Origin: Fragilaria crotonensis
Taxonomy: Eukaryota > Bacillariophyta > Fragilariophyceae > Fragilariales > Fragilariaceae
Length of the DNA stretch: 42,814 bases
Direction of reading: 5' to 3'
NCBI GenBank assembly: GCA_022925895.1
Contig: JAKSYS010000543.1
Span: 1 to 42,814 of the forward strand
Position 1 is the first letter of the stretch. Every line of letters starts with the position of its first letter. The notes beneath the pieces were generated by a model. The model was given only the letters and a program-made list of their open reading frames with translations, was not told the origin of the DNA and searched no databases. The translations under genes were made by a program, and so were the position numbers. Shown piece by piece: positions 2,868-37,791 of this stretch.

Positions 2868-4842
2868 TTACAAGGGTTGTGTTGTTGGAAGGCGATCCCA
2901 CATGGAGTCGTCAGTGAACAATGGTGAACAATCAGGGGGAGGGGAAAGAGGAATCCAAGCCACAAGTTTGGAAATTTGCTTGGTTGCATTGGCTTGATCC
3001 TCAGAAGTGTCGTCGGGAATGCATTGAACAATATGACAAATCCGAATCATTCGGACAGCCAAGAGGAGCATGAGAAGTCGTTTCACAACAGCCTTAGTTG
3101 GTTTTGCAGTAGCGTTGGAAGCAAACATAATCTTTTGGCAATCTGGATAATTGCATATCGCAGTAATCAATGTTTCGTTGCCATCTAAAGTAGGTTCAAG
3201 AAGCCGGTTCTCTCCAAAGAACAGATCAAGAAGTACAGCCTCCACTCCTGATCGAACCATGGGTTTGAAAGAGGCATGAACGGCCCCACCATCTAGACAG
3301 TACTGACAATGTGTTTGGCATGGGGTGAGCGTTAACGAAGATGGGTCTGTGAATGGGTTGGAGAGGCGACGCTCAAGAATACAATGCTGACAATCACGAG
3401 GGAGAACAAAGAACTCCAGCACTTCCAAGAACTCGTCAAGCTGTTGATTGGTGTATTCAATGAGCGTAATACGAAGTGATGCGAAGTCATGGATGTCAAT
3501 ACCCGCACCGCTCTGACCTTTGTATGCCCGAGTTACCAAATAGAGATAATCGTCTAAGTCAAAGCAAACCCAGTAGAAGTCTTCGGATCCGTCGGCACCT
3601 GGACGCCGCCCAGCACGACCTTTCTCTTGGAGAATGCAAAGAATGTTAGTTGGCATGTCGGACGAGAAGACCAAGTGAATGGAATCAGAGTCCCAACCAG
3701 CTGCGCCAAGAGAACGAGTGACGCTACAACCAACAGGCTTGAAGTTATGTAGAGAACTAGCAGGAAGGCTAGTAGGATTCAGAAATAACTCGGTTCTATG
3801 GAACTTCTGTTCCTTAGAGTAGGGACCGACAATGGTGATAATGTCACCGGAGAGATTGTGGGCGTCGAGATATGCAGTGATACCATCGCGAGCTCGCTCT
3901 ACATTGACACAGCGATTGCTGTAGTAGATGAACTTTTGTTGGTTGATTGTCAGAGCATCGATCATGGGCTTGAAGAGACGAATCGGCTGTGCATGAGGTT
4001 GGAAGTGAATGGTCTGCCGACGACACTGCATACCAAGAGCATCAGGCCAGAAGATATCCGCCGCATCGAAACGCAAGCCTGTAATGGACTCGAATTGGTG
4101 GAGAAGAGACTTGGTTGCACTTGCAGTCATGACTAGAACAGGACAGATGGTTTCGTTGCCATAAGCCTGATTGCTAGGTTGTCCAAGAAGCAACTTCGAG
4201 AACAAGACAGACTTCAAGGCGAGGAACTCCTTTCGGAAGTAGAGACCGAACTCGCAGAACAGATGCGCCTCGTCGACGCAAACTAGGCGAAGGAGATTCA
4301 AACTCAAGAGCCTATCAATAAAAACAATTGATGCTGGTCTATCGGTCAACATCTGAGGAGAGCAGAATATAACAACGCTAACGCTAGACGCATTATGTAT
4401 TATTCTGTCTTCGATGTCGGCGATGTTGTCGGCATGCTTGTACTGGTCATAATGGACAACAACAGTACCAGAGGAAACCTTGCGACTCTTGAGCTTGTAG
4501 GCTTGATCGGAATTGAGAGCCAGCAGCGGAGCGATAGACAAGGTGATGCCTGGCTCGCCCGATGCAAAGGCGTCACGAACAGCACTCTTACCGCCACCAG
4601 TGGGTTGGCAGAGAAACACAGGACGACACTTGACGTTGGAAGAGAGTTGCTGGAAGAGGTGAGTCAACACCTCTTTTTGGAAAGGAAATGGCTTGTAGCC
4701 AAAGAGCTCGTCGAACGCGGTATCGGCAAGCTGACCTGCAAGTTCGGAGATACGAGCGCTGCGAAAGAAGGAAGAGAGAAGGCAACGGTGAGTCGAAGCG
4801 TCGAAAACGATAAGGGAGAAGGCGAGAAACGACGTACCTCAT
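2868..4842 (-). CDS. RecQ-like SF2 DNA helicase, two exons with a 5-nt first coding exon
   Basis: The conceptual protein has 631 residues. The start is ATGAG at 4842-4838, followed by a 79-nt intron (donor GTACGT at 4837, acceptor CAG ending at 4759). Exon 2 begins at 4758 and restores the RecQ motif 0 region FGYKPFPFQKEVL, which is why I chose this start over any internal codon. Helicase motifs seen: Walker A QPTGGGKS (K59), DEAH (164-167), TASAT (213-217), a weakened motif V around GAAGWDSD, and QEKGRAGR (379-386). A CxxC...CxxxCxxC cluster follows, placed like the RecQ zinc-binding subdomain. Expected activity is ATP-driven 3'-5' DNA unwinding. The gene is convergent with the putative transposase at 9-2807 and is intact, so it is probably an active part of a mobile element rather than a host RecQ. 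A duplicated 5' region lies just upstream (4961-5070). Confidence 0.85.
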
Positions 4843-5091: not shown

Positions 5092-5096
5092 TTAGC
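5092..5096. repeat. Target-site duplication TTAGC (left)
   Basis: The pentamer TTAGC directly precedes the left LTR and is repeated directly after the right LTR at 11175-11179. This is the 5-bp duplication expected from a copia integrase. Confidence 0.93.
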
Positions 5097-5439
5097 TGTT
5101 GTTAATCCGATTCGACCACAATACTATGAGGCCCTGAACCTTGTATTTGTCTTGTAGTGATTCTAACGGAGATACTAATGACAAGTAATGAAGTCAATCA
5201 AACTCACTCTTTACTCACTGGATTGTTTCGAAAGAATGATCTTTCGAAACACTTTATTATTCTTGCTATTCTTGCTGACCACACGTTCGTTAGGATCATT
5301 CCTGACCCTACCTTTTACGACGTCAGCCCACGAGACAGATGATGTCTCTCCGGTATCTATAGTTCCTCGTGTATGGTTACTGGCACTGTCACTCATGTAC
5401 TCGTTCATACCTAGGTCCGGTCGTTCTTTATTTCCAACA
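5097..5439 (-). repeat. 3' LTR of the copia element
   Basis: 343 bp, TGTTG...CAACA on the plus strand. It contains an 11-bp perfect inverted repeat (stem GTTTCGAAAGA, 4-nt loop) starting at 5225. The pol frame runs into this LTR and stops at 5211. The polypurine tract just upstream in element orientation (around 5440-5453) is weak: GAGGAGCG. Confidence 0.95.
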
Positions 5440-8400
5440 CGCTCCTCGGTCGGCATAGGTTGGGTGATGGCGAGAGTGTTCATGTGTTTGTAGCCCATGA
5501 TAACGTCCCGGAATTTCTTGAACAAAGCGCCTTGTAAAGGTTTAGTAAAAAAATCACCAACCATCTGTAGCGTTGGACAATGGCGGATAGTCATACCCTC
5601 GGTCTTGATCCGATCTTTCATCCAGAAGTATCGGATGTCAATGTGCCTGGACTTGGGACCGGCAGACATGCGTCCATTCGTCTCCAGCTTAATGGCACTT
5701 TCGTTATCCTGTTCGAGGATGTTCTCCTCAACCTTATAGCCCTGCGCCTCAAGGAAATTCTTCACCCAGATCGTATTCGGCAGGTAGTCACTCGCTCCTA
5801 CAAATTCAGCCTCGGTTGAGCTCTTTGTGTTGAGTTTCTGTTTCGTGGACTTACACAATATCCCACCCCGTCCGAGTGACAAAGTTCCCCAGTGTGGCTT
5901 CGCATATCTGGATGCACAGCATAGGAAGCATCTACCCATGTGCGGAGTCGATTCAAATCATCGGCGCCGATGGTGTACTCGATGTCCATGGATCCGCTGA
6001 TGTATTCCAGAACGCGTTTAAGTTTCAATTGGTCTTGCACCGTGCTTTTGGAAACTCGGGTACAGAGGAATGCGATGGCCAACAACAGATCAACTCTTGC
6101 ACGTAGGATACGTACAGAAGCTTAGCGGACACACTGTGAAATGCCTCGCTTTCTTTCTTGCCCAGTCGCTTCGACTTCTCGTCTACTTCAAACAGGTTGC
6201 CATTCGCTGGCGTGGAAGCGGGTCTGGAAATAACTAGGCCTGACTCTGCAATAGCCTCGCTCAGGTAATCCTTCATCGTAATGATCGCGGTCTTCTCGTC
6301 GGTATATCGGATCTTCATTCCCAAGAAAACGTGTTCGCGACCTCTGGTGACCGTCATTTTATCAAACCGCCCCTCGATCTTGTGGATAATGTCGGTGACG
6401 ACATCGGGATCAACATGTGAGATTTTCATGTCGTCGACGTACCAGGCCACGGTGCACTGTTTTCCGTCAATCAAGCAGTTTGCGACGCATGGGTCATATG
6501 GATTCAGTTCGAAACCCATGTCTTTCAGGTTTTCAACAAATAACTTATACCATAATAGGGCCGATTTCACGCACCCGTAAAGTGCTTTGATAAGTCGGAC
6601 GTACAGTACTTCAACCCCGTTTTCCATTGTCACGAATTTCTCATGTTCGGGGTTCAATTGGCAGAGGATTCTGACCGACGCTCCTACGAACTTCATAATC
6701 ACAAAATCATCCATGAGGGCCTTCAGGTACGCACCGACCACGTCTGCGGTGGCCACGTCTCGAGCCTCGAAAGCTTCGATGATGATAGTCAGCATCAACG
6801 CATCGGTTGAAACGGTAGGGGAGGCGGTTTCGGACTTGTCGTAAAGGTTGCGTTGTGACCGTCCATCGGCGCATGTGCGACTTTTGAGCACTCCGTTTCG
6901 CTTCTCTTTGAATGTGTTTAGTGCCCGGATTGCTGCTTTCATCTGTTCCCTCGTGAGTTTTGAAGGGTCAAGCACTTCGTAGGCATCTAGGTCCTCCAGT
7001 TGCGAGAGTTCGGTCATGAGTGCAGCCTCGGCTGCCTTTCCGTGTTTGCGTAGACCAGCGCGTTCCGACATTTGTGTGCACGTAGTGGCCATGTGCATGA
7101 GCACGAAGTTGAATGCGAAACGTTGTCTGTCGTCCATGTTGATCAGTGATGCCTTCGTTAGCGCTTTCTGTAGCAGTTGTGTAGGAGGGTAGTAGGATTG
7201 TCCACCATGTGGGGCATCAATCGCGTCTTTGAAGGTGCCGCGGGTCACGGTCCTTGGTCGTAAGTAGTACGGTGGCACGCGTTCATCCGCGTGGTCCGCT
7301 CCTGTGTCGTGATCCGCTCCTTCATCTTGACCGTCTTCAGCGGGTTCGGGTGCGTTTGCGTTTGCGAGGTGTTCGGCCTCGTCTTCTGCAAATAGTTCGG
7401 CTTCGGCCGTTGGGTTCTCGTCAAGACTCCCAGCAGGGTGTTCTGAGTCGTCATCGAAAGGGTCGATGTCATCCTCATCATCAAAAGGGACAACGTCATC
7501 CTCATCGTCCTCGTTATCGGTACTGTCGGCGGCATCATTCGCTCCTTGGTCCGGGACAGCGGGGCCATCAAACAGGGGGGCGTCGACAGGGGCATAGAGA
7601 TCGTCAAGCTCGTGGAGGTCGATCGGGTCGTAATCGAGCGCGTCGAACGGGTCGTCAGCAGGGACGACGGTGGGGAGGGCGTAATCGACGTCATATTCTG
7701 TGTCATCGATGGGGTGATCGACGCCATTCGATGACGAAGCCACGCTCCTGGATCAGGGACGGCCTTCGTGGAGGGCCAGGGCCTCGACACGTGCGATGGC
7801 GGTGTCAGGCGTGGGCAGGACGGTCCATTGGTGGCGGGAGATGAGCGCCGGAGGCGAGAGAGGAAGTAGTAATCTCCTTGCGCATTTCCGGTGGGGCTGA
7901 GGGCGATAGCACCCAAAGAGCGACTGCGGGAGTGTTGGATGGAGCGTTTTCTTCAAAGACTTGCACATACGTCCCAAATTCCAAACGCATTGCGTGATAA
8001 TCGGGGCTAGCAGACCCGGTGACGATGGTCGCGGGACTCATCGTGGACGAGATGCCGTTGGCACGAGGGAATTGGTTGAGACAGCGGACGGAGTCGGAGA
8101 CCATGTGGGTGATCATGATACGGGGAAGTCGCTTGAAAGGGAGGCCATGTACGCTAGAACGGAGACGCTCCTTAATCGTTCGGATAGAACGTTCGATTTC
8201 ACCGACGTGACTGTCGGTGGTCACGATATTCATTTCTGTGGGACGTAGTTCCTCCCGGATACATTCGAATTCGCTATCTGCATGGACGTCACAGACGGTC
8301 AGGCCCCGGGACTGGTAGAGACTGATGACGGTCGAGACTTCTTGGAGGATCGTCTTGTGGGTACGGTCGGCGACCTGGCTGACGGTCCGGAAACCGATAC

Positions 8401-9085
8401 CACGCGAGATCGTGTGTAGGAAAGCTATTCCTTGCACAAAAAAGAAGTCGACGCAGAGCGTGACGTTGCAGTGATGTTCTGCGATTGGTGGAGGAAGTGG
8501 TACGGCCTCGAAGGTGGGCGCCCTCGGTGCCGCTGCTCCTCGGGTTGTCTTACCCTTGAGGGTGGCTACGTCGGGGCCATAGATGAGCAAAGCGCGATGT
8601 GCGTCATCAGGAGTCACGGGGCAGTTTCGGATCTGTTGCTTGATCAGAATAGAACGGAATTCGGCTTCGTCAGGGCGCCCGATCTTTCGGTATAGGTCGC
8701 GAGCGACGTCGGCAGCAGAGATCTGTCGACGTGAGAACAGCTTCTTCTGGTTTGCTACAGTCGATACCATGGTGTAGGCTGCAACATTATCGCTAATAGT
8801 GGGGCTGTTACGGACTGCCGTATCATAAACGTAGAGGCCAGAGCCGTGTTCGACAAATTTCATGATACTGCCGTCGAGGCGATGCACACACAACGCGGGT
8901 TCGGTAGAGGTGTCTAGGGTCACGCGACAAACCTTTCTGACGTCGGCTAGTGACAGGATGTTTGCAATCGATTGTGGATTATACCACACAATACCCAGGT
9001 TGTGGAAATCGCCGACCATATTTGAGTCCTGGTGCCCTCCATTCGTTAGGCGCGCAATGTGTGAGTGCTCTTACGTATGTTGGTA
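5211..9085 (-). pseudogene. Copia Pol (protease end, integrase, reverse transcriptase, RNase H), frame-broken as sequenced
   Basis: Long pieces in successive frames: 9019-7805 (end of protease and integrase, with candidate D in LCVDFFF, D in VCDVHADSEF and E in GEIERSIRTIKER), 7743-6025 (an acidic linker, then reverse transcriptase with catalytic YVDD in AWYVDDMKIS), 6085-5798 and 5939-5211 (RNase H, with WVDASYA, KSSTEAEF and HIDIRYFW). The junctions need small indels near 7900, 7860, 7750, 6105 and 5890. Several fall in homopolymers, for example GGGG at about 5889 and a CC doublet at about 6110. Pol would copy and integrate the element. The last 76 codons lie inside the 3' LTR. Whether the breaks are real or sequence error is open. 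Confidence 0.85.
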
Positions 9086-10407
9086 AGCATGGAGGCATTG
9101 TTGAACACGGAGATGGTCGATTGGGAATCAAGTAGAATCCACTCTGGGTTGATTCGGAAGCATCGGCCTGCGCCATCATGTACGCATACTGCGTCAGGGT
9201 AGTGCCGCCGACGGATGTGGTTGCAGTCCCCTCGGGGCAGTTCGACGCATAGTGTCCAACGCTGTGACATTGATAGCATTCGATGCCATCGTGTGAGGCC
9301 GTTGTTGCCTGCCACCGATCCTTGTTGAGCGAAAGTCATTCCGCTCCCCGTGTCGGACCTGGTAGTGCCCGTCGCATTGGGGGCAGCCTGTTGTTGTCTG
9401 GGTCTCGTCGTGTTCTCCGGCGTGCGATAATTGACGAGCAGATTATATGCTGCAGTCACGTTGGATGGATACTCATCACGCCCCATCGCGTATTGATTGG
9501 AGAGGTGAGCTACGAGGGTTCCGTATCTGGAAGGATCGGATCCAGTGATCAATGCGATCGCCAACGTCTTTTCATAGGCTCTGGAGCGTCGATCGTCATT
9601 GGTGACTGCTGTCCCGTCTTCATTCACAGCAGGGATTAGTTTGTAGTTCACGGCGATGGTGCCGCCGTGATGATCAATCGTCACAGCCCATGCGCGGAGG
9701 TCTTCCAAGTATGAGGCTGGCGATTGTCCTACCTGTTGCTTGCAGTTCAGGAAACTGCGTTGGGCGTTCATGATGGAGATGAAACCATTTTTCTTCTCGT
9801 CGAATTGCAAGGTGATGGAACGAATCTGTTGGAGGAGCCAGAAGCAGTTGTTGATCTTCGTCTCGGATTTGAACTCCGTGAGGGACTTGAGTTTGTCCTT
9901 CATGGCTTCGCTACACTGGCCGAGTACAACGGCTTGTATAGTGGCAAGGTTTCCCTTGAATGCGCTCTTCCTCTTGACGAACTCACGTAGCTCCTGGTCC
10001 CAGATGGCCTTTTCCACGATGCTGGCTTCAGGGTCAAGTTCCACGGGCATTTCGAGCTGTGGGTTTTCCATCTCTTCCGAGAAGAGCGGAGTCAGATCCT
10101 CGGCGAACTTCAGGTTCTTCTTAACGTAGGCCTCGAGTGCTTCGCGCGTCTTTGCGAACTGACGTCGATCAGTTTGCTCCTCGAAGCATTCGAACACATT
10201 GGCGTTCATGCCCTCTGTGTCACCTTTGAAACCAGTTCGTGCTGGGCGGTTGTTTCCCCTTCCGCCTTGGGTGCGGTTATTGATGCGGTTTCCTCTTCCT
10301 CGATTGTTTCCTCGACCCGCCTGCCCGTTCCCGTTACTGGGTCCGGTCGCTCTGCTTGCGGCTTCCGTGACCCCGCTGATGGTCGAGTTGGCGACGGAGC
10401 TACTCAT
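9046..10407 (-). CDS. Copia Gag with start of protease, frameshifted near the zinc knuckle
   Basis: The 453-codon frame starts MSSSVANS and has a Gly/Arg/Asn-rich N-terminus, then a helical capsid-like region. A CCHC zinc knuckle (CYQCHSVGHYASNC, fitting CX2CX4HX4C) is present at about 9285-9230 but in the +1 frame, so one small indel lies just before it and another just after. The original frame returns for the aspartic protease signature ILLDSQST at about 9140. It ends at a stop (9046) caused by a further one-base loss in an A/G run near 9085; beyond it the pol frame continues. Gag packages element RNA in virus-like particles. Confidence 0.85.
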   Translation of the reverse strand: MSSSVANSTISGVTEAASRATGPSNGNGQAGRGNNRGRGNRINNRTQGGRGNNRPARTGFKGDTEGMNANVFECFEEQTDRRQFAKTREALEAYVKKNLKFAEDLTPLFSEEMENPQLEMPVELDPEASIVEKAIWDQELREFVKRKSAFKGNLATIQAVVLGQCSEAMKDKLKSLTEFKSETKINNCFWLLQQIRSITLQFDEKKNGFISIMNAQRSFLNCKQQVGQSPASYLEDLRAWAVTIDHHGGTIAVNYKLIPAVNEDGTAVTNDDRRSRAYEKTLAIALITGSDPSRYGTLVAHLSNQYAMGRDEYPSNVTAAYNLLVNYRTPENTTRPRQQQAAPNATGTTRSDTGSGMTFAQQGSVAGNNGLTRWHRMLSMSQRWTLCVELPRGDCNHIRRRHYPDAVCVHDGAGRCFRINPEWILLDSQSTISVFNNASMLTNIRKSTHTLRA

Positions 10408-10787
10408 CGAGTCTGAAGGCGGCGCACGTTATTCGGGGCTCGCCAGGTTCGCACTCCGTTGTCGGTCACGAAGTGTACTTGCTTGTTCGGTCCCTTGATC
10501 AGCACTTCTGTTACCGTGGCCGTTTTGCCTTCACTTTCGTTCCACTCCAAGCCGTTGTCCCAATTGGCCGGTTTATGGAGTTTGTTGACTATCCAAATTC
10601 TGTCTCCACGGGAAAATTCTCTCTTCGTTTCTCTCTCTTCGCTTGCAACGGCAACAGCTTCGTATGTAGCTTCCTCGCAGTCCTTCTCTGCGATTGCGTG
10701 TTCGAGCTGTTCCGTTAGTTCTGCCTTCTGTAGACTCAACACCTTCAATGCGTTTGTCAATTCTTGGATAGTTTTCTTCCTCTCCAT
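10404..10787 (-). CDS. Small pre-gag ORF of the copia element (127 aa)
   Basis: Starts at ATG 10787 in the leader between the 5' LTR and gag, and ends in TGA at 10406-10404. The gag ATG (10407-10405) overlaps this stop as ATGA, an arrangement that permits termination-reinitiation. Residues about 2-55 look like a coiled coil (KKTIQELTNALKVLSLQKAE onward). The second half has the pattern GDRIWIVNKLHKPANWD, then TATVTEV, then HFVTDNGVRTWRAPNN, which suggests a small beta-barrel, possibly nucleic-acid binding. The function is not known to me. The frame is intact, unlike much of pol. Confidence 0.65.
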   Translation of the reverse strand: MERKKTIQELTNALKVLSLQKAELTEQLEHAIAEKDCEEATYEAVAVASEERETKREFSRGDRIWIVNKLHKPANWDNGLEWNESEGKTATVTEVLIKGPNKQVHFVTDNGVRTWRAPNNVRRLQTR

Positions 10788-10817: not shown

Positions 10818-10831
10818 TTCTTTCGAAACAA
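10818..10831 (-). other. Presumed primer-binding site, self-complementary to the LTR
   Basis: The 14 nt directly abutting the 5' LTR read TTGTTTCGAAAGAA on the coding strand. They do not begin with TGG as a tRNA-primed site would. They are the exact reverse complement of TTCTTTCGAAACAA inside the LTR (10971-10958), allowing a fold-back primer as in Tf1/sushi elements. Confidence 0.6.
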
Positions 10832-11174
10832 TGTTGTAAATCCGATTCGACCACAATACTATGAGGCCCTGAACCTTGTATTTGTCTTGTAGTGATTCTA
10901 ACGGAGATACTAATGACAAGTAATGAAGTCAATCAAACTCACTCTTTACTCACTGGATTGTTTCGAAAGAATGATCTTTCGAAACACTTTATTATTCTTG
11001 CTATTCTTGCTGACCACACGTTCGTTAGGATCATTCCTGACCCTACCTTTTACGACGTCAGCCCATGAGACAGATGATGTCTCTCCGGTATCTATAGTTC
11101 CTCGTGTATGGTTACTGGCACTGTCACTCATGTACTCGTTCATACCTAGGTCCGGTCGTTCTTTATTTCCAACA
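10832..11174 (-). repeat. 5' LTR of the copia element
   Basis: 343 bp and nearly identical to 5097-5439. On the coding (minus) strand a TATA-like AATAATAAAG at 10996-10987 lies about 25 nt upstream of TTCTTTCGAAACAA (10971-10958), which would place a plausible transcription start at or near the latter. This is inference from spacing only. Confidence 0.93.
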
Positions 11175-11179
11175 TTAGC
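11175..11179. repeat. Target-site duplication TTAGC (right)
   Basis: Matches the pentamer at 5092-5096 and marks the right boundary of the copia insertion. Confidence 0.93.
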
Positions 11180-11725: not shown

Positions 11726-13487
11726 ATGGGACAACTAATCAGTGTACCGGTGAGTTCAGATGCCGCATTCGCTTTGGATCGTCGACCAAAAACAATTTCA
11801 GAATGCATGGTGGGCGGGAAGATCAATGAAAGAATGTATCACGAGTTCAAGAAGAGATCATACGAGGAACTTGACCAGCATCTTGCTGATATGCTGTTCA
11901 CGAACTCCCTCCTACATGGGGAAGAAGAGCATGAAGGCAACGAAAATGAGCAGCAGCGTGTAACAACAACAAGGAAGGCAAAGAGAAGGAGAAAAGAAAA
12001 ACAAGTTGTGATGTATACAGACCCTTCTACTGGATTGCGGTGTCGATTGCACCCTAGGATGTCGTTGTGGTAAGTTTAACAAGTTATTCCTTTCCATTTC
12101 CGGAACAACACCCGTCTTTCCAGTATGTTCTAACACTTTTGCTGTTATTCCATTCCGCGACAGGTATAATATGTACGTAGAATCACCTTTCCTTGAAAGT
12201 CCTAGGTTCCATCGCATCTTTCGGAAACGTTTTAGGATGCCCTACAGATGCTTTCAAGAACTGGCTGCCATGCTTGCCGAGTCCCCACTTTTTGAACGGT
12301 GGAGAGACGGAAAAGCGGACGCCTTTGACCGACCAACAACACCTTTGCCGCTGCTTGTCCTATGTTGTCTTCGCTACATCGGACGAGGGTGGACGTTTGA
12401 TGACTTGTCAGAGAACACTGGGATCTCTGATGAAATCATACGAGTCTTTTTTCACCGATTCATCGAATTTGGTAGTACAGTCCTGTACAAGAAGCATGTC
12501 GTTGCTCCGGAATCTGCCGATGACGCTGCTGTTCACACAAAGGAATACGAAAAAGCTGGACTACCGGGTTGTGTTGGCTCGATGGATGCGACGCACATAC
12601 TCCTTGAAAAGGTTGAGTATCGGCTTCGTCAGAGTCACCTCGGATTCAAGAGCAGTCACACTTGTCGTACTTACAACATCACTGTGAACAACAGACGTCA
12701 AATTCTGGCAACGACAATGGGTCACCCAGCAAGGTGGAACGATAAAACCGTTGTGCTTTTTGATGATTTTGCGGTGGCATTGCATGAAGGGGAAAAACTT
12801 CAAGACGTCAGGTTTCACTTGTATGATCATGATGCATCTGGCAATGTTATAAAACAGACGTATGCCGGAGTTTGGCAGATTGTTGACAATGGTTATCTGA
12901 ACTGGTCAACGACTGTGCCGCCATTGAAAACATCGTGCAATCGCTCCGACATTCGCTTCTCAAAGTGGCTCGAGTCCATTCGGAAGGACGTCGAGTGTAC
13001 GTTTGGGATACTCAAAGGCCGCTTCCGAATATTAAAAACAGGTATTCGTTTGCTTGGACAAAAATCTGCTGATAAAATTTTTCTAACATGCTGCGCTCTT
13101 CACAATTGGCTGCTCAATGAGGACGGCCTCAGTGAAGGATGGGAAGATGGCGTGCCAAGTATCTGGGAAGGAAGCATTGGTTATCACGACGTTTGCGATG
13201 CTCAAGAACACCTTCCTGCCGCGGTACAGCGACTCATGTCTCCGACGCAATTGAGAACGTTCGATCTGTCTCGAGTTGGTTTGATGGGTGCTACTGACAA
13301 CGTTGTTTACCGTCACCGACAAGGGGACAATGACAACGATGACGCACAAATGTCTTGCAAGGTTGTCAAGAAGCTCAGCTTGAATTACTTCAGATCAAAG
13401 CTGATCAAACATTTCAGCATTGCGTTTCAAAGAAACGAAATCCAATGGCCAGGCAAACGGAATCAGCTGAACGAGTTGCCCTTCTAG
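11726..13487 (+). CDS. PIF/Harbinger DDE transposase, two exons
   Basis: Exon 1 ends at 12069 (TTGTG before GTAAGT) and exon 2 starts at 12164, removing a 94-nt intron and giving the join SLWYNMYVESPF. The first in-frame ATG is at 11726; the frame stays open to about 11567 without an ATG, so an extra upstream exon is possible. Counting from the methionine at 12171, the catalytic triad is D139 (GSMDATH), D239 (IVDNGYL) and E275 (DVECTFGILKGRF), with 35 residues between the last two as in Harbinger (HARBI1-like) nucleases. The N-terminal part of exon 2 has the usual FRxxFRM helix. It would cut and rejoin the transposon at its TIRs. The reading frame is intact. Confidence 0.9.
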
Positions 13488-22142: not shown

Positions 22143-24724
22143 TCAATTAACCTGTGCAGGACGCTTTCTTTTCCAATTAAAGAAAAACTTGAATGGATTT
22201 CGACGCTTCTTTCGAACCGCCACTGGCTCTTCGGCCGATGTACAGTTTCGTTTGCATTCTTCTTCGAGGGCTGCAACCTTGGCCTGAAGCTCTTCTACAG
22301 ATATTGTCGATGCGTGCAACTTATCGCCGCACGCCTTCTTTTTGAAGATTTCATCCTTCACGTCCGACTTGCAATGCTTCCAAACTGCAGTCGTGTCAGC
22401 GTGCGCAAGTTGGGTCTCGCGCAAGACCTGCTTCAACGAGTTCATTTCCGACTCCTTGCTCGCAACAACATCCTGTAACGGAACCAGGACACTGGCGCAT
22501 GCCTGTGCTAGATCTCGATTGCACTCGCCTTCGAGGGCTGCAACCTTGGCCTGTAGCTCTTCCACAATTATTGTCGATGCGTGCAATTTATCGCCACAAG
22601 CCTTCTTTTTGAAGATTTCATCCTTCACGTCCGACTTGCAATGCTTCCAAACTGCAGTCGTGTCAGCGTGCGCAAGTTGGGTCTTGTGCAAGAGCTGCTT
22701 CAACGAATTGATTTCCTGTTTATCCCTGGCCGAATTCTTCATCAACGCATCGATTTCCGACTCCTTGTTCGCAACAACATCCTGCAACGGCTCCAGAACC
22801 CCAGCGCATGTTTGTGATTGGTCTCGATTGCACTCGCCTTCGAGGGCTGCAACCTTGGCCTGGAGCTCTTCCACAATTATTGTCGATGCGTGCAATTTAT
22901 GCACCACAAGCCTTCTTTGAAGATTTCATCCTTCACGTCCGACTTGCAATGCTTCCAAACCGCAGTAGTGTCAGCGTGCGCAAGTTGGGTCTTGTGCAAG
23001 AGCTGCTTCAACGAATTGATTTCCTGTTTATCCCTGGCCGAATTCTTCATCAACGCATCGATTTCCGACTCCTTGTTCGCAACAACATCCTGCAACGGCT
23101 CCAGAACCCCAGCGCATGTTTGTGATTGGTCTCGAGTGCACTCGCCTTCGAGGGCTGCAACCTTGGCCTGGAGCTCTTCTACAATTATTGTCGACGCGTG
23201 CAACTTATCACCGCATGCCTTCTTTTTGAAGATTTCGTCCTTCACGTCCGACTTGCAATGCTTCCAAACCGCAGTAGTGTCAGCATGCGCAAGTTGGGTC
23301 TTGTGCAAGAGATGCTTCAACGAATTGATTTCCTGATTATCCTTGGCCGAATTCTGCATCAACGCATCGATTTCCGCCTCCTTGCTTGCAACAACATCCT
23401 GCAAAGGCACCAGAACCCCAGCGCATGATTGTTCTAGATCTCGATTGCACTCGCCTTCAAGGGCTGCAACCTTCGCCTGTAGCTCTTCCACAATTATTGT
23501 CGACGCGTGCAACTTATTGCCACACGCCTTCTTCTTGAAGATTTCGTCCTTCACGTCCGACTTGCAATGCTTCCAAACCGCAGTAGTGTCAGCATGTGCA
23601 AGTTGGGTCTTGTGCCAGAGCTGCTTCAGCGCATTGATTTCCTGTCTATCCTTGGCCGAATTCTGCATCAACGCATTGATTTCCGACTCCTTACTTTCAA
23701 TATTGACCTGCAGCCTTACCAATTCGCTTGATCCTGCGGGCTCGTCACGTTGGCACTCAGCTTGCAGTGCTGTAAGATTTCCTTGAAGCTGCTCGACTAT
23801 TCGTTCTAGGGGATACAGCTTACTGCCACACGCCTTCTTTTTGAAGATTTCATCCTTGACATCCGACTTGCAGTGTTTCCAATCGGCAGTGGTGACTTCA
23901 AGTTTGGAGGTAGTGTCTGCAAGCAATCGCTTCATGGTCATAATATCGCGTTGGTACTGGATGGAATCCTTTTCAAGGTTGGATATTTGTGATTGGTACT
24001 CCTGCGCACCCTTTTGCAGATCAATAACATGAAGTCTGTATTTTTCACTTTCGTCCTTGGATAATTGTAATTCGTTCACTAGTTGCTTGTTTTCGTCAAG
24101 CAGTCCTTTCATTTTGTTTTGCAAGTCGGTAATTTGTCGATGTAGCTCCTCCATGTCCTTGGTTGGCACACCAGTACTAGCGCCGTTTGTGCCATTTGCC
24201 GCGCGGCAGGCATCTTCGGTTAAAAAGGCTACTGTCGACCATGTCGCCTTGCAGAGTGTCAAGTCCTGAATCAAATAACACTCGGTGCCAGAACAGGGTG
24301 ACATGCCGCAGATGCTGTAGCTCAACCCAATCACCCAAAACATTGCCAAAGTGGAAAAGATGTAAATGGAGAGACACCACTTTTCTCGGATATTCAAGTT
24401 CCCAACGTTGCTCAGAGCGTTCCAAGTCTTGCGACGACGGGAGACCTCTGTTTTGACAATGAGCGTATTCTTCGAGGAACTACTTGTAATTATTGAGTCA
24501 TCTCGAGCTTCCGAAACTTTAGTCATGACTTGAAGAGGAGTATTTGTCGTTTTTTGCTTCTTTTCCGCATAGCCTTCCGCTCCAGAAGGTCTCTTATTCT
24601 TCATGAATTCATCCATCTTCGTGCCTTTCCCTGGAAGTATCAACGAATTCTTCTGGCGATGTTGATGTTGTTGCTGCTGCTGCTGTAATGGAGTTCGTCT
24701 CTTGGTTCTCGTATCCACAACCAT
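22143..24724 (-). CDS. Single-pass membrane protein with six Cys-containing coiled-coil repeats
   Basis: Starts MVVDTRTKRRTPLQQQQQQH with a polyQ and basic N-terminus, and has one membrane segment at about residues 116-138 (CLSIYIFSTLAMFWVIGLSY). A long coiled coil follows, then six copies of a unit of about 103 residues, each carrying WKHCKSDVKDEIFKKKACG and an LQAKVAALEGEC-type block, so several cysteines recur at fixed positions. It ends in a very basic tail (KKRRNPFKFFFNWKRKRP). This looks like a type II protein with a lumenal or extracellular rod, possibly disulphide-linked. Around 22905-22918 the frame breaks because a run of five T in the other repeats is three T here; the frame then resumes to the stop at 22143. 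No family recognised. Confidence 0.75.
22230..23900 (-). repeat. Tandem 309-bp coding repeats
   Basis: The marker GAAGATTTC recurs at 22343, 22611, 22919, 23228, 23537 and 23843, giving spacings of 268, 308, 309, 309 and 306 bp. The two units around 22611-22918 and 22919-23227 differ by only a handful of bases, indicating recent unit duplication. The 268-bp unit lacks about 14 codons. Confidence 0.9.
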
Positions 24725-36323: not shown

Positions 36324-37791
36324 CTACTTCAGCATAGTAAGAAGCTGTGGCAACTTCTGGTTGAGCTGCCCATCTGTGTGCCACCACCGACCAAAGTCAG
36401 GGTAGCTATGAGGATTGTCATCTTCGTGTAACTTCGCGCAAAGGTCACAGAAACTCAAATTGTAAACGTCTCTGCCACCCACAACATGGTAATGGTCTTT
36501 CCACCAAAGGTAGGAGAGATATTCAGTAGCATTCTTGTCGAGTCTGTGGAGGAAATCAGCAAGCGCTTTCGGACTGCTATAATCGAGAACATTAATGAAT
36601 GAATGGGGAGGAGCTTGGAGCTGTAATGGCTTGTCCCAAAACGATAGGTACCAAGGTATCATTCATTCGCGAAAAGAACTTCTCCGTCACGTAGTCCTGC
36701 GCAAAGTTGTTCTCAAATGCCAAATAGAACTTGTAATCACGCATAACTTTCGAGTTGCAATTTTCCTCACCATCAACATTATCGCATGGAAAACTTCCAC
36801 ACTTTCCATAGACATCGACATCAATGTATTTCTTCAACTCTTGGACGAAATCTTCTCGATGAGAGTTGCTTACACAGCGCGATACCACCCATGCCACCTT
36901 CTTTGGTCGACGTGCTAGCCTACGAAAGCTCTCATCTTTGTTTGGCAAAACATTTCGTACGAAATGCGTCTCATTGTAATCGATAGGCCACGCAGATTGT
37001 TGAATTTGGATACCTTTCGGATTCCCTTCTTCCACTGGATCTACATTGGGGGCAATGAATGCATACGGTATTGGAACATCACTATCGATTCGATACGTCA
37101 TGGTATAGTTCCAGAAGGAATTGTAGCTCGCAGATGTCAATAGTGGGCCGTTTGGCGGCGGTTCCAGCATGAAGAATACAAATCTTTGATGTGGTTGTCT
37201 CCAAGTTTGAATGTAATCCATGTCCCCGGGGCTGAGATTGGCTTCGACTCCATGCATGACAATTGCATCAAACTTAGGCATTTCTTCAACCGAAGGAGAA
37301 TGCACCGGCCTGCTTGATGCAACACAAGATGTAATTCGGCATTTTGCAAATGAATCTTGTTCAAAGCCGACATGGAAATCTGTCCAATGCCAAAAGCTGT
37401 TGTAAAACAGGATTTTCTTGATTGGAGGGACCAGGGCCTCGTCCTGTGTGACCACATTCGGAGGAGCCGAGCTCCTATTCAAGGCATCTTCTTGACTTGC
37501 AATGACAGGTAGAGGTCTTGCATTTCCAGATGCTGCAGATGCTCCTGATGTTGATTCATTATATTGCAGTTTGAGAGGAGAGGGATCCTCGGCTGGCACG
37601 CCCTTGGGAACAACATCCAGGGTGGCAATATCTAGAAGGACCCAGCTCCTATTGGTGGCATTTTTTCCACTCGTTACAACAGGTTGCGCCTCGTTGAATT
37701 TGCCAAGGCGTTTACTATTACGAAGGGTGAGACAAAGGAGCAATCCCACGCAAACAACTGTCGCTGATCGGGTTCTTCCATTGCCTTTCAT
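36324..37791 (-). CDS. GT10 alpha-1,3-fucosyltransferase-like protein
   Basis: A type II Golgi enzyme layout: short basic N-terminus, one signal-anchor at about residues 10-22 (ATVVCVGLLLCLTL), a stem with several N-glycosylation sequons, and a C-terminal catalytic domain. Recognisable GT10 blocks are VAWVVSRCVSNSHREDFVQE, VDVYGKCG, the donor-binding motif FYLAFENNFAQDYVTEKFF, VPIVLG, and after a frame break PPHSFINVLDYSSPKALADF. The frame shifts at least once between 36600 and 36650, so the last 90 or so residues (ending at 36324) are in another frame. It would transfer fucose from GDP-fucose to N-glycans or other glycans in the Golgi. It lies on the opposite strand between tweety-like genes B and C. 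Confidence 0.85.

Follow-up and report, generated by a model that had tools for sequence, protein, structure and literature searches.

The Copia element in the window

The window, that is, the whole stretch of 42 814 nt that was analysed, is contig C496 in our numbering of the 62.1 Mb genome searched. The host is probably a diatom: the plastid Rubisco large subunit of this genome gives a full-length alignment to known large chains (1067 bits to 7yk5_A), the nearest of which are diatom enzymes. Its minus strand is the coding strand of an LTR retrotransposon, recognisable by near-identical LTRs (341 of 343 aligned positions agree), TG..CA ends and a target-site duplication (Table 1). One ORF matches the RVT_2 reverse transcriptase (RT) family PF07727 with an E value of 6.3e-17 and 62.4 bits against a cut-off of 31.6, which assigns the element to Ty1/copia (Pseudoviridae). 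Pfam searches gave no match either for the ORF at 7805–9019, upstream of the RT, where Ty1/copia elements encode their integrase, or for the longer frame that holds the first ORF. Judged by its LTRs the copy is young, and it is perhaps not intact, since the coding region is broken into several ORFs.

The element has a transposase-like ORF of 438 aa as a neighbour (12171–13487, plus strand; DDE_Tnp_4, E 5e-17; Plant_tran, E 2e-15). The window also contains, on the minus strand, a DEAD-box helicase-like ORF (2868–4670; E 2e-6), a family 10 fucosyltransferase ORF (36592–37791; E 3e-31) and, at 22143–24724, ORFs in whose translation blocks of near-identical repeated residues can be seen by eye.

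Table 1. Features of the window element, arm versions of its relatives (group A) and pairing in two distant groups
Feature	Position	Strand	Basis or remark
5' LTR, 343 bp, TGTTG...CAACA ends	10832..11174	-	LTR–LTR alignment
3' LTR	5097..5439	-	LTR–LTR alignment
Target-site duplication GCTAA (coding strand), 5 bp	11175..11179, second copy 5092-5096	.	both flanks
Primer-binding site (PBS) TTGTTTCGAAAGAA, 0 nt from LTR	10818..10831	-	complementarity and covariation
Candidate self-primer segment TTCTTTCGAAACAA within LTR	10958..10971	-	complementarity and covariation
CA immediately 5' of primer segment	10972..10973	-	A 10972 is the inferred transcription start
U3 arm of 12-bp hairpin (3' arm is the primer segment)	10975..10986	-	predicted fold
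A-rich, TATA-like AATAATAAAG	10987..10996	-	sequence; function putative
First ORF, starting with an ATG 30 nt past PBS; gag-like in position only	10404..10787	-	ORF list
ORF with Copia-type reverse transcriptase RVT_2	6025..7743	-	PF07727
Group A arm versions (junction counts)			TTCTTTCGAAACAAT (2), TTCTCTCGAAACAAT (10), TTCTCTCAAAACAAT (4)
Group A arm versions (junction counts)			TTATCTCGAAACAAT (4, including C548), CTTTCTCGAAACAAT (5), CTTTCTCGCAACAAT (3)
Group A arm versions (junction counts)			TTCTCTTGAAATAAT (3), TTCTCGCGAAACAAT (1), TTCTCTCGAAGTAAT (1)
Group B	C733:45 kb, C20		pairs AAAATTAAATTAAAG with LTR segment 113 nt from LTR end
Group C	C218, C120, C55:135 kb		pairs AGTTTTAGTAAAGTAT with LTR segment 129-130 nt from LTR end

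The primer-binding site is complementary to the LTR

The first-pass annotation of this DNA had pointed out that the 14 nt immediately next to the 5' LTR (10831–10818) lack a TGG and are the perfect reverse complement of a segment inside that LTR (10971–10958), and both statements hold. Counting the last A of the LTR, which can pair with the T at 10957, the complementarity reaches 15 nt. The annotation had also judged such a match at the LTR edge very unlikely to be accidental. Indeed, when the LTR was subjected to dinucleotide shuffling and the match was anchored within 0–2 nt of the LTR edge, none of 2000 shuffles reached 14 nt and the best reached 12, which rules out chance complementarity as an explanation.

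The pairing covaries among related elements

Relatives of the window element (group A) were gathered from the same genome by DNA, pattern and RT searches. This gave 39 junctions of 5' LTR and leader, 31 found by sequence and 8 by RT position. In the 26 loci found by pattern, arm positions 9–15 are fixed by the pattern itself, so that only positions 1–8 are free there; in the 8 RT-guided junctions all arm positions are free, nothing having been assumed about the arm. The first-pass annotation had proposed comparing LTR segment and leader for covariation among copies, and over the 39 junctions the outcome is strongly positive. Pairing is perfect over 15 nt in 33/39, in nine sequence versions (Table 1), and the versions CTTTCTCGCAACAAT, TTCTCTTGAAATAAT, TTCTCGCGAAACAAT and TTCTCTCGAAGTAAT come from the RT-guided set only. 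A junction was obtained for 8 of the 14 RT-guided elements, and all 8 are perfectly paired. For the other six (C30, C44:252 kb, C874, C95, C55:275 kb and C273) no 5' LTR was found in the fetched DNA; in two of them, C874 and C95, the 3' LTR has a primer segment. The count omits a locus at C603:122 kb with a PBS and no 5' LTR segment, one at C603:85 kb (L019) where no segment was found, and loci that are 3' LTRs.

The six imperfect junctions are those of C242, C23, C327, C445, C512 and C560. G–U pairs are retained in C242 (one), C327 (two) and C445 (two), C23 has one mismatch, C560 has one mismatch and one G–U pair, and the PBS of C512 is disrupted by deletions. As the 3' LTR of C242 still matches the PBS, its 5' LTR seems to have been altered after insertion. 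The imperfections in C242, C327, C445 and C560 (loci L016, L033, L035 and L038) are mostly changes of CG to TG or CA, and could reflect post-insertion decay at CpG sites that were methylated.

Covariation was quantified on an alignment, A1, of 37 distinct rows over the 15-pair helix, using shuffles that ignore kinship among the rows. By this measure 98.9% of cells are paired (91.9% in shuffles), 9 of the 15 pairs show changes on both sides (3.7 in shuffles), 37 cells are doubly changed (6.5 in shuffles) and the covariation score is 0.248 (shuffle mean 0.106), values that none of 500 shuffles reached; the number of further pair types, 16 against 13.2, was reached by 8/500. When the partner was slid along the alignment, pairing fell to 45–55% and the covariation score to at most 0.094, compared with 0.248 in register. 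RNAalifold recovers the PBS–primer helix unaided, and in single-sequence folds the primer is paired with the PBS in 15/15 representatives. Mapped onto a 20-member RT tree, some forks of which are weak, the arm requires at least 12 changes, every one of them matched in the PBS. The window version, with T at position 5, is itself a double change relative to its sister C37 (support 100/100). All of this covariation evidence comes from a single genome.

Two distant groups pair other sequences

Similar pairing was found in two further groups of Copia elements, whose RTs are 45–46% (group B) and 35–37% (group C) identical to that of the window element and whose primer and PBS sequences are unrelated to those of group A. 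All five elements with resolved LTRs pair perfectly over 15–16 nt, a further group B element (C398) being cut by a contig end; 0/2000 shuffles match this in the two elements tested. In groups A, B and C alike, the T that follows the primer segment pairs with the terminal A of the LTR, and in group C the pairing is one base longer at the other end, extending into the A of a CA. An RT tree splits A, B and C together from seven other Copia elements with support 100/99, on long branches that drew a tool warning and with an arbitrary root. What the sequences show is that LTR and PBS remain paired through compensatory changes within the family, and that two distant Copia groups of this genome maintain the pairing with sequences of their own.

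Comparison with tRNA primers

If a host tRNA or half-tRNA primed these elements, as in Drosophila copia, the match between PBS and LTR would be incidental. We compared the PBS sequences with 21 tRNA genes representing 10 amino acids, 20 of them chosen from the 63 matches listed, together with the initiator tRNA-Met. The first-pass annotation had seen no complement of a tRNA 3' end in the leader. For the eleven self-complementary PBS versions of groups A, B and C, no clear fit was found among the 21 genes when compared with shuffled PBS sequences. The lowest counts, which rank fairly high, were for group B, where shuffled sequences did as well in 18/300 cases, and for the window version (41/300); for the commonest version they did so in 138/300. 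Complementarity to an internal stretch of a tRNA, the feature of half-tRNA-primed copia, was likewise absent among the 21 genes. Judged by coordinates, the window segment's 11 exact copies all lie clear of the 63 tRNA matches listed, a list drawn from a search in which the best candidates were scored.

As controls, ten Copia elements were chosen from 150 listed RVT_2 matches, and LTR pairs were resolved in seven (the exceptions being C350, C209 and C592). The PBS is CGCTTCCTCTGCGC in five of these and GGTTATGAGCCCAA in one, each complementary at 14/14 positions to the initiator tRNA-Met gene at C37:64748 (0/300 shuffles). Thus 6/7 match the initiator tRNA-Met; the seventh, with a palindrome at this place, lies outside the tRNA test. 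The longest LTR complement at the edge of the seven controls is 0–8 nt; of 2000 shuffles, 37 did as well as the 8-nt case and 47 as well as the 7-nt case.

The controls vary in what they match. In the five elements with CGCTTCCTCTGCGC (L111, L113, L115, L119 and L123, on C420, C175, C74, C348 and C293) the PBS is the complement of part of the D-arm, and priming there would need an unusually short 5' fragment of the tRNA. The PBS of L121 (C295) is complementary to the anticodon stem-loop of the same tRNA; we liken it to Drosophila copia, which uses a half-tRNA primer. The seventh, L127 (1319–1860; C733, near 119 kb), has a Copia LTR followed by the palindrome CGTTTATAAACG and no LTR complement, which recalls the conserved hairpin site described for GalEa elements in PMC5445492.

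The initiator tRNA-Met matches of other Copia elements in the same genome speak for tRNA priming, as does the pairing of tRNA-Arg(UCG) with the window PBS at 9 Watson–Crick and 3 G–U positions of 14. Against this, shuffled PBS sequences fit as well in the numbers of cases given above, no single tRNA can suit nine versions together with groups B and C, and priming by a tRNA would not couple the PBS to the LTR. With no fit clearly above chance among the 21 genes, tRNA priming is largely refuted, and we regard it as very improbable.

It must also be considered whether the pairing is a real RNA structure that serves another step, such as packaging, dimerisation, translation control or strand transfer, with some unknown RNA as the primer. 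Covariation alone proves pairing, not priming, and in the window version the TTTCGAAA core is itself palindromic. However, the LTR edge, where the 3' end of a primer is required, is also where the helix stops in all three groups, no alternative primer appeared among the tRNAs tested, and the pairing is absent from the elements with a tRNA-type PBS. Such a role in place of priming seems very unlikely to us.

The RNA start and the U3 hairpin

The arm is adjoined on its 5' side by CA in 37/39 group A copies (TA in C433 and C23), and CA is found there in groups B and C as well. In the window it stands directly before TTCTTTCG (10972/10971), within a TCATTC around 10972 that we take to be an Inr-like motif. 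Transcription would start at this CA; with an Inr here, the arm would be the 5' end of the RNA. The TATA-like sequence noted in the first-pass annotation is indeed present, 16–25 nt upstream of the LTR segment, although its place is not sharply marked because the families are broadly A-rich between -40 and -16 (41–55% A).

The same annotation had described an 11-bp hairpin formed by the LTR segment in both LTRs. The hairpin does occur in both, but its stem is 12 bp long, positions 10986–10975 pairing with 10970–10959 around a TCAT loop. In predicted folds of the region from -30 to +18, U3 sequence covers at least 8 nt of the primer in 39/39 group A copies; in several families the hairpin is interrupted by bulges and internal loops. 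The fold in group B is another one and only partial, over 8 primer nt, and in group C 0 nt of the primer are folded. The group A hairpin tends to covary with the primer segment: over ten versions, pairing with the own U3 arm gives -12.2 kcal/mol compared with -9.0 for permuted arms, and only 1 of 20 000 permutations, which ignore kinship, was as low. In 3/10 versions no other U3 arm pairs as well as the own one, and in 2 the own arm ties with another.

The universal presence of this fold in group A and its tendency to covary raise the question of whether the hairpin, as a palindromic promoter or RNA element, is what has been conserved, the PBS resembling it by shared descent. We find this hard to credit. 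Group C pairs its PBS without any fold over the primer and the fold of group B is different and partial, so that the hairpin is not a general requirement, and it is disfavoured as the primary feature. Moreover, 33/39 junctions have all 15 nt of the PBS perfectly paired whereas several families have a bulged or looped hairpin, and in only 3 of the ten versions does the own U3 arm outdo all others.

Because the putative start falls within the loop or beside it, the RNA would lack the U3 arm at its 5' end, and the 3' LTR copy would have it. In our model the hairpin would lock the wrong copy of the primer, the one in the 3' LTR.

Discussion

By far the best-supported reading of these sequences is self-priming by the RNA 5' end. 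As in Tf1-like self-primed elements, the PBS that adjoins the LTR complements a segment of the 5' LTR and not a tRNA, among the 21 genes compared. We put at close to nine in ten the probability that the window element, an LTR retrotransposon of the Ty1/copia type, uses its own RNA 5' end to prime the synthesis of minus-strand DNA.

The RNA would begin at the CA just 5' of the primer segment, and its 5' end would fold back onto the PBS. A nuclease, in Tf1 the RNase H activity of the RT that the element itself encodes, would then cut behind the paired stretch and free a 3' end at the LTR edge, from which reverse transcription would copy U5 and R. If each new copy obtains its PBS through copying of the primer, any mutation in the LTR segment is carried over into the PBS one cycle later, and this would account for covariation that is nearly perfect. 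In group A, the hairpin with the U3 arm would sequester the primer segment of the 3' LTR, and only the 5' copy, which lacks U3, would be free to pair.

The Tf1/sushi elements (Tf1, Tf2, Tj1) belong to Ty3/gypsy, whereas the polymerase of the window element is of the Copia type RVT_2, so that it would work like Tf1 without being a member of that lineage. The pairing here, of 14–16 nt, is longer than the 11 nt of Tf1, and group A, unlike Tf1/sushi, has a U3 hairpin over the primer. Extra duplexes of the kind found in the Tf1 'pretzel' were not detected: the RNAalifold alignment contains no further long helix, and duplexes with the 40 nt after the PBS were no better than in shuffles for 15 representatives (z from -1.4 to +2.3). 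Self-priming has been demonstrated for Tf1 and proposed for Tj1 (PMC10085805, PMC4600332).

The first-pass annotation knew of no copia case, a statement that is outdated, since elements of the plant TAR lineage of Copia, among them Houba and Osr-1, are predicted self-primers, with a PBS whose match lies in the 5' LTR and not in a tRNA (PMC6317226). They were detected by blastn complementarity of at least 10 bp, and covariation is not mentioned in the parts of that paper dealing with them. By description, the TAR lineage and the window family are both Copia with a match between PBS and 5' LTR, and differ in host group. Fungal GalEa elements resemble the window family in being Copia without a tRNA PBS; they differ in that their conserved hairpin is located after the LTR, and no U5-inverted repeat complementary to it is reported in the relevant sections of PMC5445492. 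The main text of the diatom CoDi paper contains neither 'tRNA' nor 'self-priming', and its sole 'PBS' is the buffer. In the portions of the open-access literature covered we found no description of self-priming in diatom Copia elements, and two scans of IMG/VR viral contigs found no related elements. What is new here is the covariation evidence, the host group, and the group A U3 hairpin over the primer segment with its tendency to covary.

A broader reading, which we offer tentatively and hold to be possible rather than probable, is that the whole deep Copia clade of groups A, B and C, probably a diatom one, self-primes instead of using a tRNA. With every new PBS made as a copy of the primer that the element itself supplies, the primer would be free to drift, to the point of being wholly replaced between groups, and in group A the U3 arm, as a third covarying and PBS-like sequence, would lock the primer copy of the 3' LTR, leaving priming to the RNA 5' end, which lacks U3.

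In contrast to the demonstration for Tf1, self-priming among Copia elements has, in the accounts cited above, so far only been predicted from short complementarity. With at least 12 compensated changes in one genome and Copia controls that match a tRNA, the case made here is one of evolution, not of resemblance. With such a covarying family it can be asked by what route elements abandon tRNA priming, and what keeps a primer from pairing at the RNA end where it should not. It also follows that PBS finders seeking only tRNA matches would miss self-primed elements.
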